Positions 314-15,444 of a stretch of DNA of 40,156 bases are shown one piece after another. The stretch spans positions 1 through 40,156 of the forward strand of contig JAFXUD010000077.1 of NCBI GenBank assembly GCA_017535315.1, given 5' to 3'. The number at the start of each line of letters is the position of its first letter. Position 1 is the first letter of the stretch. Under the pieces are notes generated by a model. That model was not told the origin of the DNA. It worked only from the letters and a program-made list of their open reading frames with translations, and made no database searches. This DNA comes from Victivallales bacterium. GTDB lineage: Bacteria; Verrucomicrobiota; Lentisphaeria; Oligosphaerales; Oligosphaeraceae. A program made the position numbers and the translations under genes.

Positions 314-1987
314 ATGGATAATCTAAATTTGAATGGAATGTGGCGTTTTGCCTTCCATGACGCGAAAAAACTGGAGGAAATAGACCTCACGGAAGAGCGA
401 CTTGAAGAATTGATGTGCGTGCCTGGCTGTTTTGACAGCCTGCCGAATCATTATTGCCAACGCGGATGCGCGGTTTACTCACGGGATTTCACATTGGAGG
501 AAGACTGGCGGAATTGCTGGCTTCGCATCGATGGCATGGGACTTCGCGGCGCTTTCTATATTGATGGCCGCCCCTTGGGTGAATGCGCCCTGCCCTATTC
601 CGCATTTGAACTGGAATGTGGTTCATTGTCCGCTGGCGTGCATCATATAACGGCACTGCTTGACAATAATTTCGACCCAGAGAAAATGAAGCTGTTCTGG
701 CCCTATTACGATTTCTATGCATTTGGCGGCTTCTATCATGGGGTCTCCCTGCGCTTGAGCAAGGAGGAAAATCCGCTTGACCGCATTTTGGTCAGAACGT
801 TGGACTACCGCACTGGAAAACTGGAGCTGGAGTTCGTTTTCAAGCACGCAACTCCTGAACACTTCACCGTTCGCCTTGCAATCAACAATGAGCCCGAAAA
901 AGAATACGAAATTAGTCATTGCCGCATGGAATTGGAACGGCCAGACTTGCCCCTATGGTCTCCTGAATCGCCTGCTTTGCATTCACTTAGTGCACGAGTT
1001 GGGACTGACCTCGTAAGGGAGAGTTTTGGCATCCGTGAAATACGCGTCGAAGGGGCAAGGCTACTCCTGAATGGCAAGAGGATTTATCTGAAGGGCTTCA
1101 ATAGGCACGAAAGTGCCCCAATATGCGGTGCAGCAACCACACTGCAGCAAATGCTGGTGGACTTGCAGCATCTCAAGTCCCTCAATGCCAATTTCATCAG
1201 AGGCTGCCACTATCCTCAATCCCAGACCTTCTTGGAGCTTTGCGACAAAATGGGCTTTCTCGTCTGGGAGGAAAGCCTGGGTTGGGGAAACCGAAAAGAG
1301 CAGGCGCAGGACAGTCAATTCTGCGAATTGCAGCTAGAGCAGACACGCCTCATGGTGCGCAACAGCTTCAATCATCCCTGCGTAATCATCTTCGCGTTTC
1401 TAAATGAGATTGCCTCCCAATGGGACGAATCAGTTGAACTCTGCCATAAACTGGCAGATGCCATACGCGCTGAACAATCTGGCAGGCTGGTAACCTTTGC
1501 AAACTGCACCAACTATCAGGACCGCGCCCTGGAATACATGGATGTGCTGACCTACAATACATATCCTGGCTGGATTCAAGCTAACCAGGATGCGGACCCC
1601 TTGGTTGAAATTGAACCGAACCAGGAAAAACTCCTGCAGCATTTGCGACAGCTTCACGGCAAAGACAAGCCAATCATTGTCAGTGAAATGGGATGCTGCG
1701 GCATATTCGGGCAACATGATGAAGCGGCAGCGCAATGGACCGAGGAATTCCAGGCGGACTATCTCGCTAAAGTCATCGATACCGTCATATCGTCACCAGA
1801 AATTACTGGCCTTTCCTTATGGCAGATGAATGACGCCAAAAGCTATCACCGTTACGGCTCCATTATCCGCTGCAAACCCCTGGCGCAGAATCTGGCAGGT
1901 GTTTATGACCAATATCGCCGCCCGAAACTCGCAGCACAGGTCGTCAGAGAAAGATATGCCAAAATAGACGACGGGATGGGAAAATAA
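314..1987 (+). CDS. Glycoside hydrolase family 2 enzyme (beta-galactosidase/beta-glucuronidase-like)
   Basis: A 557-residue enzyme predicted to hydrolyse terminal beta-glycosides with retention. Domains in order: N-terminal jelly roll (about 5-150), immunoglobulin-like sandwich (about 155-245) and TIM barrel (about 250-545). GH2 hallmarks are present: GFNRHE near 261, a RGCHYP motif near 296 and WEES near 318. The acid/base is Glu365 in FLNE and the nucleophile Glu458 in VSEMG. It lacks the long C-terminal domains of LacZ, so it resembles the shorter glucuronidase/galactosidase class. There is no signal peptide, so it is probably cytosolic and acts on imported oligosaccharides. The ATG has a GGGAGAAG ribosome site 8 nt upstream. 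It stands alone, and a double palindrome follows the stop. The exact sugar is unknown. Confidence 0.9.
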   Translation: MDNLNLNGMWRFAFHDAKKLEEIDLTEERLEELMCVPGCFDSLPNHYCQRGCAVYSRDFTLEEDWRNCWLRIDGMGLRGAFYIDGRPLGECALPYSAFELECGSLSAGVHHITALLDNNFDPEKMKLFWPYYDFYAFGGFYHGVSLRLSKEENPLDRILVRTLDYRTGKLELEFVFKHATPEHFTVRLAINNEPEKEYEISHCRMELERPDLPLWSPESPALHSLSARVGTDLVRESFGIREIRVEGARLLLNGKRIYLKGFNRHESAPICGAATTLQQMLVDLQHLKSLNANFIRGCHYPQSQTFLELCDKMGFLVWEESLGWGNRKEQAQDSQFCELQLEQTRLMVRNSFNHPCVIIFAFLNEIASQWDESVELCHKLADAIRAEQSGRLVTFANCTNYQDRALEYMDVLTYNTYPGWIQANQDADPLVEIEPNQEKLLQHLRQLHGKDKPIIVSEMGCCGIFGQHDEAAAQWTEEFQADYLAKVIDTVISSPEITGLSLWQMNDAKSYHRYGSIIRCKPLAQNLAGVYDQYRRPKLAAQVVRERYAKIDDGMGK

Positions 1988-2104: not shown

Positions 2105-3124
2105 TTATTTGAACATATCCTCGACCTTGACGGGCTGACCGCCCAGGGCCGCAGACTTGGCAGCCGCCAGCGCGGTGGCAACGGTCTTGGCACCTTCATA
2201 GACATTGGTCAGAACTGGCTTGTCGTTGAGGATGCAATCGACGAACTCGTTGATTTCCGCCGAGACATTGTGGTTGGCGATATTGACGGGAAGCGTCGCC
2301 CAATCCAGTTTACCCTGCATGAGCTTGTTGCTGCAGATCTGGATGGTGGGACTGGTGTTGTCGGTGATGATGGTTCCCTGCGTTCCATAGAAGACGCTGC
2401 GCATCGTGTAGGGACGCACGCATCCAATGGAGGTCATGGACTTGCCGATGACATTGTTCGGGAACTTGATGATGGCAATGGTGCAGTCGTTGACTGGCCA
2501 GTCTTTCAGGCACTTGTGGTTGGCAAAACCACAGACTTCGATTGCGTCGCCCGCAATCCAGCGGAGCAAATCCACGGCGTGGCAGCCACCGCCGACCATC
2601 GGCTCGCGGCGCGCATCCACACGCCAGTCGCCAACGCCACGAGCATGCCCATAGTTGTGGGCATATTCGCTCTCGACAAAGTAGAGTTCGCCAATCATTC
2701 CGTCATCGATAAGACGCTTCGCCAGCATGAAGCCAGGCGCGTAGCGGCAGACCTGCCCGATCATGAATTTCGCCTTGCCCTTCTCGACCTCGGCGATAAT
2801 GCCCTTGGACTGCTCCATGGTCAGTGTCATGGGCTTCTCGCACATCACATGCTTGCCCGCCTTCAGCGCGGCGATGCAGTGCTCGGCATGAAAGTAGTCG
2901 GGGGAGGCCACGGAGATGATGTCAATGTCGGGATCATTGACGATGTCCATATAGTTCGTGGTGGCGAGACGTGCGTTGTACTCCTTCTTGCGCTGCTCCA
3001 ACAGGGCTGGTGTCGTGTCGCAGACAGCCGCCACCTCGCAATGCGGGTTGTCCCGATAGCCAATGCAATGCGAATTACCCATCCGCAGTCCAATCACGCC
3101 AGCTTGAAACTTACCATCTTTCAT
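2105..3124 (-). CDS. Gfo/Idh/MocA family oxidoreductase
   Basis: A 339-residue NAD(P)-dependent dehydrogenase of the glucose-fructose oxidoreductase/inositol dehydrogenase family. The N-terminal Rossmann fold opens with GVIGLRMGNSH, a slight variant of GxGxxG, and ends with the conserved EKPM (96-99), whose lysine is a catalytic residue in the family. The C-terminal alpha/beta domain carries GGGCHAVDLLRW (178-189) with the usual substrate-site His182. No signal peptide, so cytosolic. It lies 30 nt downstream of the cyclophilin gene on the same strand, with an AAAGGAG site 9 nt before the ATG, so the two are probably cotranscribed. Substrate cannot be predicted; sugar or inositol oxidation fits the setting. 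Confidence 0.88.
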   Translation of the reverse strand: MKDGKFQAGVIGLRMGNSHCIGYRDNPHCEVAAVCDTTPALLEQRKKEYNARLATTNYMDIVNDPDIDIISVASPDYFHAEHCIAALKAGKHVMCEKPMTLTMEQSKGIIAEVEKGKAKFMIGQVCRYAPGFMLAKRLIDDGMIGELYFVESEYAHNYGHARGVGDWRVDARREPMVGGGCHAVDLLRWIAGDAIEVCGFANHKCLKDWPVNDCTIAIIKFPNNVIGKSMTSIGCVRPYTMRSVFYGTQGTIITDNTSPTIQICSNKLMQGKLDWATLPVNIANHNVSAEINEFVDCILNDKPVLTNVYEGAKTVATALAAAKSAALGGQPVKVEDMFK

Positions 3125-13438: not shown

Positions 13439-14095
13439 ATGATCAAACCTCTAACTGGCTCCACTTCCATCGGCTCGGCATTCAACAAGGGATTGCAGAT
13501 CTACAAAGAAAACTTCGTGCTCATCTTTCTCGGCTATTTGATAGCATGTCTTGTTTCGGGTGTCACCTGTGGCATCTGCAGCGGTCCGATGATGTGCGGC
13601 TTTATCGGTATTCTTCTGTCCCTGCTGCGCAACAATAATCCCAAGCCGCAGGTCAGTGACCTATTCAACGGCTTCCAGAAATTCCTGCCTGCCTTCGTCA
13701 CCATGTTGGCGTTCGGTGCCATCAGTTTCGTTGCCCAGATCGTTAATATCATTCCAATTCTCGGACAGCTTGCCGCCATCGTAATTGCTTGTTTCATCTT
13801 GCCAGCAGTAATGCTCTGGGCGTTGTTTTTTGTCCAAGACCAGAACGCGACAATCGGCGAGGCCATTGTCGAGCCCCTCAAACTAGTCACCCAAAAGCCG
13901 TTCTGGACGGTTATGCTTGTTGTTTTCGTTGCAGGTCTGCTTGGCGCGGTTGGCTGTATCGCATGCGGTATCGGCGTTCTTTTTACAATGCCGCTCAGCT
14001 TCTGTATGGTTGCAGCCGCCTACGAGGAGGTCTATGGCGATTCTACCCAACTTGACGTTCCCGCCGCAGCATCTCCTGCACCACCCGCGTTGTGA
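13439..14095 (+). CDS. Multi-pass membrane protein, DUF975-like
   Basis: A 218-residue hydrophobic protein with about five or six membrane segments (roughly 25-48, 50-66, 82-104, 106-128, 154-178, 180-200). The opening ASFxxGxxxYKxNF-like pattern (IGSAFNKGLQIYKENFVLIF) resembles DUF975/glycerophosphoryl-diester phosphodiesterase membrane-domain proteins. Function unknown. An alanine/proline-rich tail ends it. AAAGGA lies about 8 nt before the ATG. Its stop overlaps the start of the DUF2752 gene (shared GTGA), which suggests translational coupling, and a very strong hairpin begins 20 nt after the stop. First gene of the plus-strand cluster. Confidence 0.7.
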   Translation: MIKPLTGSTSIGSAFNKGLQIYKENFVLIFLGYLIACLVSGVTCGICSGPMMCGFIGILLSLLRNNNPKPQVSDLFNGFQKFLPAFVTMLAFGAISFVAQIVNIIPILGQLAAIVIACFILPAVMLWALFFVQDQNATIGEAIVEPLKLVTQKPFWTVMLVVFVAGLLGAVGCIACGIGVLFTMPLSFCMVAAAYEEVYGDSTQLDVPAAASPAPPAL

Positions 14096-14502
14096 CAAAC
14101 GAACACAACCAGTCCAAGCACGCCGCCTCCCGCCAGAGTTGCTGGCGGGAGGCGGCGCGCTTGTTTTCCGCACTGTTGTTCGTGGCAGCCATCATCCTGC
14201 TGGCATATTCGCTCGGAATCGTCCTATGTCCTCTTAAGAGATTCACAGGCATACCATGCCCGACTTGTGGTTCCACGCGTGCTGTTCTTCGAGCCTTGCA
14301 CGGTGATTTTCGCGGTGCCTTTATGCTTCAGCCACTGGTAATGACATTAGCCGTCGCATCTATCCCAGTAGCGTTGGTAGCTGTATTGTCCAAGCGAGTA
14401 AAACATATTCTGAAAGTTGCTTTCCACCACCCCTTGACCTGGTTTCTTGCCGCTCTGGCAATTGCAGCTAACTGGGTTTATGTCATTATGAATGGAAATT
14501 GA
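14092..14502 (+). CDS. DUF2752 family membrane protein
   Basis: A 136-residue protein with the DUF2752 signature CPLKRFTGIPCPTCGSTRA (46-64) between membrane helices (about 22-44, 80-99, 115-133), followed by HGDFRGAF. Function of the family is unknown; the cysteine cluster may bind metal. The GTG start overlaps the previous stop. A second candidate start, TTG at 14161 (codon 24), has GGGAGG 8 nt upstream and begins right at the first membrane helix. That GGGAGG lies inside the 3' arm of the strong hairpin at 14115-14163, so this start would be hidden unless the hairpin is opened. Start choice is therefore open. Confidence 0.8.
   Translation: MTNEHNQSKHAASRQSCWREAARLFSALLFVAAIILLAYSLGIVLCPLKRFTGIPCPTCGSTRAVLRALHGDFRGAFMLQPLVMTLAVASIPVALVAVLSKRVKHILKVAFHHPLTWFLAALAIAANWVYVIMNGN
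14115..14167 (+). terminator. Very strong hairpin with T-rich tail inside the start of the DUF2752 gene
   Basis: CGCCGCCTCCCGCCAG (14121-14136) pairs perfectly with 14142-14157 around the loop AGTTG. After one A-C mismatch, CAAGC (14115-14119) pairs with GCTTG (14159-14163), giving 21 of 22 pairs. TTGTTTT overlaps and follows. It has the form of an intrinsic terminator or attenuator just after the first gene of the cluster, yet lies within codons 8-25 of the next ORF. Confidence 0.65.
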
Positions 14503-14541
14503 GTAGCCCCCAAAAAACACATCAAGTAAAGGAGGTGCTGT

Positions 14542-15444
14542 ATGAACACTAGCATCATAGCCATTGGTTATTGTGGATTGGACAGACTATGCCTTCTCCC
14601 GCACATTCCCATAGATGACAAGGTCAAAATCGACGAATATCTGGAACAAGGTGGTGGGCCAGCCGCTACAGCCGCGTTTACCGCAGCACGCCTTGGCATC
14701 AAGACCGCCTTCGTCGGGGTGGTCGGCGATGATATGGCAGGCAGCATCATACGCAAAGGTCTGGATGATGTCGGCATCGACACACACTATCTAGTCCAAC
14801 GTCCAAACTCCACCTCTCCACTGGGATTCTGCTGGGTTGATCAGAAAACGGGCAAACGCAGTATAGCCTGGACACACGGTAATGCCCTTCCCTTGGAACC
14901 AGGAGAAATTCCCCTGGCAGCCATTCGTGACGCAGATGCCATTCACCTGGACGGGCACCAAGGCGATGCTGCGCTCGAAGCTTCAGAGCTGGCCTCCCAT
15001 ACTGCCACACACGTTTCCCTTGACGCTGGCACCATCGTACCCGATATCGAACGGCTGTTGGAGCTTTCGGACATCATTATCGCCTCGGAAAAATTCGCTA
15101 CCACCGTCACAGGCTCTGGCGACCCCAAGGAGGCCGTCAAAATCCTATTCAAAATAGGCTTCACGAACTTTGCGGGCATCACGCTTGGTGAAAAAGGTTC
15201 CCTTGGCTATGACGGTGCACAACTCTTTTTCCAACCCAGCTTCAAAGTCGATGTCAAAGACACCACTGGTGCAGGAGATACCTACCACGGTGCCTTCCTC
15301 GCCTCATACGTGAAATGCCTCCCTCCCCAAGAGTGCATGAGACGTGCAGCCGCCGCTGCCGCTATCAAATGCACAGCCCTTGGCGGACGCACTGCCATAC
15401 CAGACATGACCACTCTTGAGCGTTTCCTGAAACAACATGAATAG
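14542..15444 (+). CDS. PfkB family carbohydrate kinase
   Basis: A 300-residue ribokinase-fold enzyme that would phosphorylate a sugar or sugar derivative with ATP in the cytosol. The substrate-binding GGGPAATAAFTAARLG (37-52) is a version of PfkB signature 1. DTTGAGDTYHGAF (240-252) is signature 2, with catalytic base Asp246 and the anion hole GAGD. Length is normal for the family. AAAGGAGGT lies 5 nt before the ATG, the best ribosome site in the cluster. It follows the DUF2752 gene by 39 nt and precedes the phosphatase-fold gene by 55 nt. The substrate cannot be told; closeness to ribokinase/2-keto-3-deoxygluconate kinase types leaves several options. Confidence 0.9.
   Translation: MNTSIIAIGYCGLDRLCLLPHIPIDDKVKIDEYLEQGGGPAATAAFTAARLGIKTAFVGVVGDDMAGSIIRKGLDDVGIDTHYLVQRPNSTSPLGFCWVDQKTGKRSIAWTHGNALPLEPGEIPLAAIRDADAIHLDGHQGDAALEASELASHTATHVSLDAGTIVPDIERLLELSDIIIASEKFATTVTGSGDPKEAVKILFKIGFTNFAGITLGEKGSLGYDGAQLFFQPSFKVDVKDTTGAGDTYHGAFLASYVKCLPPQECMRRAAAAAAIKCTALGGRTAIPDMTTLERFLKQHE

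Follow-up and report, generated by a model that had tools for sequence, protein, structure and literature searches.

The first codons of a DUF2752 membrane-protein gene contain a long hairpin with a U-rich tail, which we tentatively read as a leaky intrinsic terminator, that is, an attenuator inside an operon (probability about 0.48). The hairpin lies in the analysed 40,156-nt stretch of Victivallales bacterium DNA (contig JAFXUD010000077.1, hereafter the window), shortly after the overlap of two membrane-protein genes. The features concerned are:

13439-14095, + strand: upstream gene (ORF), encoding a 218-aa multi-pass membrane protein, first of the pair
14092-14502, + strand: DUF2752 membrane protein, 136 aa from GTG14092 (PF10825, E = 7e-17)
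14092-14095, + strand: GTGA, where upstream stop and DUF2752 start overlap by 4 nt, seen in the sequence
14115-14163, + strand: hairpin found by folding (synonymous-recoding z = −6.1; first in stability among 218 closely spaced starts)
14137-14145, + strand: apex codons S16, C17 and W18, the proposed equivalent of an SxW(D/E) motif in relatives
14147-14152, + strand: GGGAGG, Shine-Dalgarno-like, in the 3' arm and fully paired (predicted pairing; N-terminal lengths of relatives)
14161-14167, + strand: U-rich tail TTGTTTT, a weak terminator tract encoding L24-F25, where membrane helix 1 begins
14542-15444, + strand: PfkB-type sugar kinase, downstream neighbour (PF00294, E = 3e-45)

Gene Pair and Hairpin Geometry

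The Pfam match confirmed the DUF2752 identity that had been proposed for the second gene from the letters alone. The genome carries this single DUF2752 gene, and the literature collection searched contained no publication on DUF2752. The label "DUF975-like", previously given to the upstream gene, was unsupported: its product, judged to be a multi-pass membrane protein from its sequence, matched no Pfam family and gave only a weak, sub-threshold match to the BPSS1780-type membrane family (BPSS1780_fam). The −4 stop/start overlap of the GTGA type is typical of translational coupling. No Shine-Dalgarno sequence was visible ahead of GTG14092. Among relatives, the junctions were TGATG overlaps at three loci (L072-L074), and in several others DUF2752 started at +6 to +15. 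A fusion of the two proteins by frameshifting or stop read-through was dropped as a candidate, as no slippery site was evident and the two genes differ in relative frame from one relative to another.

The hairpin has two arms of 22 nt (14115-14136 and 14142-14163) with 21 paired positions, a 5-nt loop (14137-14141) and a sole mismatch, A14120 × C14158. Both the position and the pairing of the 21-of-22-bp hairpin with a T-rich tail, first noticed in the early DUF2752 codons by the sequence-only reading, were thereby confirmed. The predicted energy was −47.1 kcal/mol for the hairpin alone and −38.2 kcal/mol for its perfect, GC-rich 16-bp core (14121-14157). In its 141-nt context, the energy was −65.6 kcal/mol (z = −5.3), and 0 of 200 dinucleotide shuffles were equally stable. 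The stem begins 19 nt after the upstream stop codon (TGA, 14093-14095); the distance had earlier been given as 20 nt, and here the proximity held and the figure did not. Counted from GTG14092, the hairpin covers codons 8-24 of the DUF2752 ORF and lies 24-72 nt into it. The tail, TTGTTTTCC (14161-14169), passes a permissive terminator scan, with a maximum run of 4 T compared with 7 T in the nearest ortholog pair (L054).

Hairpin Stability Relative to Chance and to the Genome

Excess structure was evaluated against synonymous recoding of up to 150 nt before the CP motif, using the locus's own codon use. The hairpin is far more stable than protein coding needs (z = −6.1), with 0 of 150 recodings reaching the observed stability. 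Among 218 same-strand starts with close spacing, surveyed over 0.84 Mb of the genome, it was also the most stable hairpin, by 15 kcal/mol.

In the 0.84 Mb survey, where gene ends rest on crude longest-ORF gene calling, stems below −25 kcal/mol within 90 nt after the stop were found at 12 of 236 convergent or far-tandem (gap >100 nt) gene ends, compared with 2 of 246 closely spaced tandem pairs. The latter two were the window hairpin and a stem between genes with an over-called start. Because of this difference, the window stem appears to be of the kind placed at transcription-unit ends, here located within a gene.

A repeat or mobile palindrome (REP/MITE-like) was rejected as an explanation, as the hairpin is single-copy in the 4.9 Mb genome. 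An Rfam search of the hairpin gave no family at gathering score, and only chance-level, microRNA-like matches far below threshold were obtained.

Other palindromes were recorded as well. Genome G000 contains a dispersed palindromic element built on AGGTAATTTCAAAACTAGCGC, with stems of 13-34 bp and mostly intergenic, at contigs C78 (51525, 89734, 257541, 362268), C46 (94389) and C49 (92773); it looks like a REP/MITE-like family of this genome. On C78 of G000, a 14-bp AT-rich hairpin (175233-175268) lies within a minus-strand gene (175042-175948) confirmed as a sigma-70 family member. In the window, the adjacent stem-loops CCCTGCGCTTTAGCGCAGGG and GCAGGGAGTAGCAA...TTGCTACTCCCTGC occupy positions 2041-2098 between convergent genes at 314-1987 (+) and 2105-3124 (−), and could form alternative folds because bases are shared between both.

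Nearest Ortholog Pair and the Sugar Kinase

The nearest ortholog pair, L054, comes from rumen MAG RUG11875 of another family; its proteins are 52% and 48% identical to those of the window, and gene order is the same. The DNA alignment places its element, CCGCCGCCGG...CCGGCGGCCGG-TTTTTTT, on the hairpin and tail of the window: the 5' arms share ACGCCGCC, the 3' arms share GGCGGC, and TTGTTTT lies opposite TTTTTTT. The L054 stem is shorter than the window stem and sits at homologous DUF2752 codons. Since the T-tract also falls on homologous helix 1 codons (L-F versus F-F), the protein sequence dictates part of it. The terminator scan gave a match in the window and in L054 alike, each reached in 5% of synonymous recodings. 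A terminator would be conserved at most between these two loci.

These data divide one proposal of the sequence-only reading, an attenuator for the sugar kinase cluster. Its form is borne out by the hairpin and U-tract at the homologous codons of L054. The kinase as target fares poorly, because it has its own strong Shine-Dalgarno sequence, AAGGAGG (14529-14535), and no kinase follows the L054 pair. With no conserved kinase link seen, a kinase-operon attenuator was rejected. The natural target of an attenuator would be DUF2752 itself, rather than the sugar kinase; a terminator at this position would also reduce any read-through into the kinase.

At an E-value cut-off of 1e-10, none of the 28 further genomes in the family to which the window belongs contained the upstream gene. 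As the gene is missing from its own family and its best relatives are in another, the pair may have been acquired by horizontal transfer.

Proposed Leaky Terminator Within DUF2752

We infer that polymerase leaving the upstream gene would make the GC-rich stem and then a weak U-rich stretch, so that some transcripts should end near 14164-14170. Termination would reduce the output of DUF2752, and of any co-transcribed gene further on, compared with the upstream membrane protein. A ribosome following the polymerase closely, either stopping at TGA14093 or re-initiating at GTG14092, may cover or melt the 5' arm and so permit read-through. The output of DUF2752 would then track translation of its upstream partner.

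In E. coli, the trailing ribosome tunes terminators that lie 8-30 nt beyond a stop codon, where its repression is increasingly lifted (PMC4824070). Terminator efficiencies of 0.12 and 0.8 were reported at 17 and 18 nt in two series, the effect being sequence-dependent, and terminators inside the first 100 bp of a coding region also work (PMC4824070). A ribosome-gated leaky terminator is the reading we favour because the position of the hairpin, 19 nt beyond the stop and at nt 24-72 of the ORF, falls within the range of that work. Also in favour, ordinary terminators occur within 140 nt of the stop at 11 of 50 upstream-gene loci where DUF2752 is not next. Several points count against a terminator: the U-tract is weak, with only TTTTCC after the full stem or CGCTTGTTTT after the core; the 22-bp stem exceeds the usual terminator length; many strong gene-end hairpins of this genome have few T; and terminator-like matches over the pair loci barely exceed the recoding expectation.

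Structure in DUF2752 N-Terminal Codons Across the Phylum

Whole-genome searches identified the upstream gene followed by DUF2752 at about 35 loci in many families of the phylum. At the 34 pair loci other than the window, the DUF2752 N-terminal codons had a mean z of −0.95, versus −0.10 in 140 control regions of the same loci (Mann-Whitney test on rounded z values, p = 3e-4; p = 1e-4 after thinning close relatives). Values of z ≤ −2 were observed in 8 of 34 pair loci and 5 of 140 controls. The excess peaked around the codons for RPxSxWxxVxVH (z = −1.35; −1.17 without the window), where 8 of 20 alignable loci, window included, had P < 0.05. The hairpin apex lay on or beside the SxW codons in L155, L183, L188 and L221. 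We propose that the window apex, S16-C17-W18, represents the same SxW motif, although the automatic alignment did not place the window W exactly there.

The register of the pair-locus stems varied, and most had no T-tract. Terminator-like matches over the 35 pair loci numbered 3 versus 1.9 under synonymous recoding; with no clear excess, a phylum-wide terminator was rejected. As the pair-locus structures mostly have no U-tract, support for a terminator is confined to the window locus and L054.

The wider signal bears on a different role, in which the stem acts on translation or mRNA life, either by limiting or pacing coupled DUF2752 translation or as an RNase III-type processing or protecting stem. 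We consider this role, the main rival to the leaky terminator, unlikely, if worth serious attention. The tendency to structure at the 34 loci is consistent with it, as are the hairpins without U-tracts and the stop/start overlaps in several relatives; in one screen, cited by a review, structure just past the upstream stop lowers coupling (PMC12548453). However, registers and apex positions vary by lineage, a minority of loci are individually significant, and DUF2752 genes without the upstream partner show little local contrast (−0.64 versus −0.46). Common ancestry among the loci makes the p-values optimistic, and the null itself reaches about −0.5 in other parts of these genes; the wider structure signal is modest and no more than suggestive.

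A broader proposal, which we regard as doubtful, is a phylum-wide dual-coding RNA element in the N-terminal codons of partner-following DUF2752 genes, often centred on SxW, that would control protein ratio or membrane insertion. The window stem would be its most extreme form.

Individual loci contained further hairpins. In L072, L073 and L074, a 12-15 bp hairpin lies about 53-100 nt after the upstream stop, in helix 1 codons just before the CP motif. In it, C-G is replaced by T-A through synonymous changes on both sides; the hairpin was not significant against synonymous recoding. In L177, two copies of GGGCGCCCG at 31-61 nt past the upstream stop form a 12-bp hairpin that encodes a repeated G-R-P stretch beside the SYW motif. 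In L067 (G234), a close relative where no DUF2752 is next, the interval from +24 to +79 after the upstream stop holds a long GC hairpin (CTCCGCCCGGCA..TGCCGGGCGGA) that lacks a T-tract.

Start of the DUF2752 Coding Sequence

GGGAGG (14147-14152) was found 8 nt before the in-frame TTG14161, as described earlier, and all these bases are predicted to be paired. Two interpretations had been attached to this region: a translational switch that opens the buried second start, and a plain terminator combined with a misjudged DUF2752 start. In relatives, 31-45 residues precede the CP motif; for the window protein the count is 45 from GTG14092 and 22 from TTG14161. In the DUF2752 frame of L054, TTG802, ahead of the hairpin, is the only start before helix 1, and the next is an ATG behind that helix. 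In L070, an ATG 11 nt past the upstream stop is the sole start before the CP motif. L071 shares this ATG, and its one other start is a TTG deep within helix 1. In both L054 and L070, no start codon is present from the hairpin to the end of membrane helix 1. Codon statistics of the hairpin segment favoured no single frame.

Given the starts in L054, L070 and L071 and the N-terminal lengths of relatives, translation most likely runs through the hairpin. The start at GTG14092 is probably not misjudged, and GGGAGG is probably a by-product of the stem. The switch to a second start is therefore not supported, since TTG14161 leaves too short an N-terminus and L054 and L070 have no such start. A softer version, in which ribosomes at the upstream stop or the overlapping GTG may keep the hairpin unformed, remains part of the best explanation, the leaky terminator.

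The same comparisons disfavour a plain terminator of the upstream message, with DUF2752 beginning at TTG14161, TTG14176 or GTG14182 and expressed from elsewhere or hardly at all. We judge this arrangement improbable, even though 19 nt after a stop is a typical terminator position, GGGAGG is well spaced ahead of TTG14161, and some relatives without DUF2752 have terminators there. GGGAGG and TTG14161 are buried in the stem, and a polymerase ending there would not reach DUF2752. Least probable is a functionless stem, arising when GC-rich Ala and Arg codons happened to become complementary or when a tolerant N-terminal tail took in a palindrome: the tail is poorly conserved, such codons pair readily and the element is single-copy, but the recoding result, the wide gap in stability to other gene starts of the genome and the presence of a terminator-like element at the homologous codons of L054 all stand against it.

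Comparison with Known Systems

The favoured leaky terminator resembles the ribosome-tuned terminators of E. coli (tR2 constructs and pyrBI-type attenuation; PMC4824070) in its GC stem and U-rich tract, its location 19 nt after a stop and its place in the first 100 bp of an ORF. It differs from them in its much longer stem (22 bp), its weaker U-tract and the natural 4-nt gene overlap. As with the internal operon terminators that set unequal expression, described in an archaeal Term-seq study (PMC10450193), a site between two operon genes would make the second product scarcer; unlike those, the window site lies inside the coding sequence of the second gene. In E. coli, Term-seq has mapped RNA 3' ends inside ORFs, including some predicted intrinsic terminators (PMC7815308), and the likeness is the ORF-internal position; the window site is predicted from sequence, and its hairpin has no Rfam match.

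The 4-nt overlap without a visible Shine-Dalgarno sequence also recalls termination-reinitiation coupling at overlapping genes, where junction structure affects coupling (PMC6728339, PMC12548453). The window stem differs in lying downstream of the start, rather than over the ribosome site of the likely start.

If the leaky terminator is real, it would be a natural case, outside model bacteria, of a terminator placed in the coding sequence of the next gene at a ribosome-sensitive distance. A protein ratio would then be set by RNA folding without a leader or intergenic space. The element would offer a first handle on the control of an uncharacterised membrane pair containing DUF2752, and the structure excess across the phylum may represent a testable dual-coding element.
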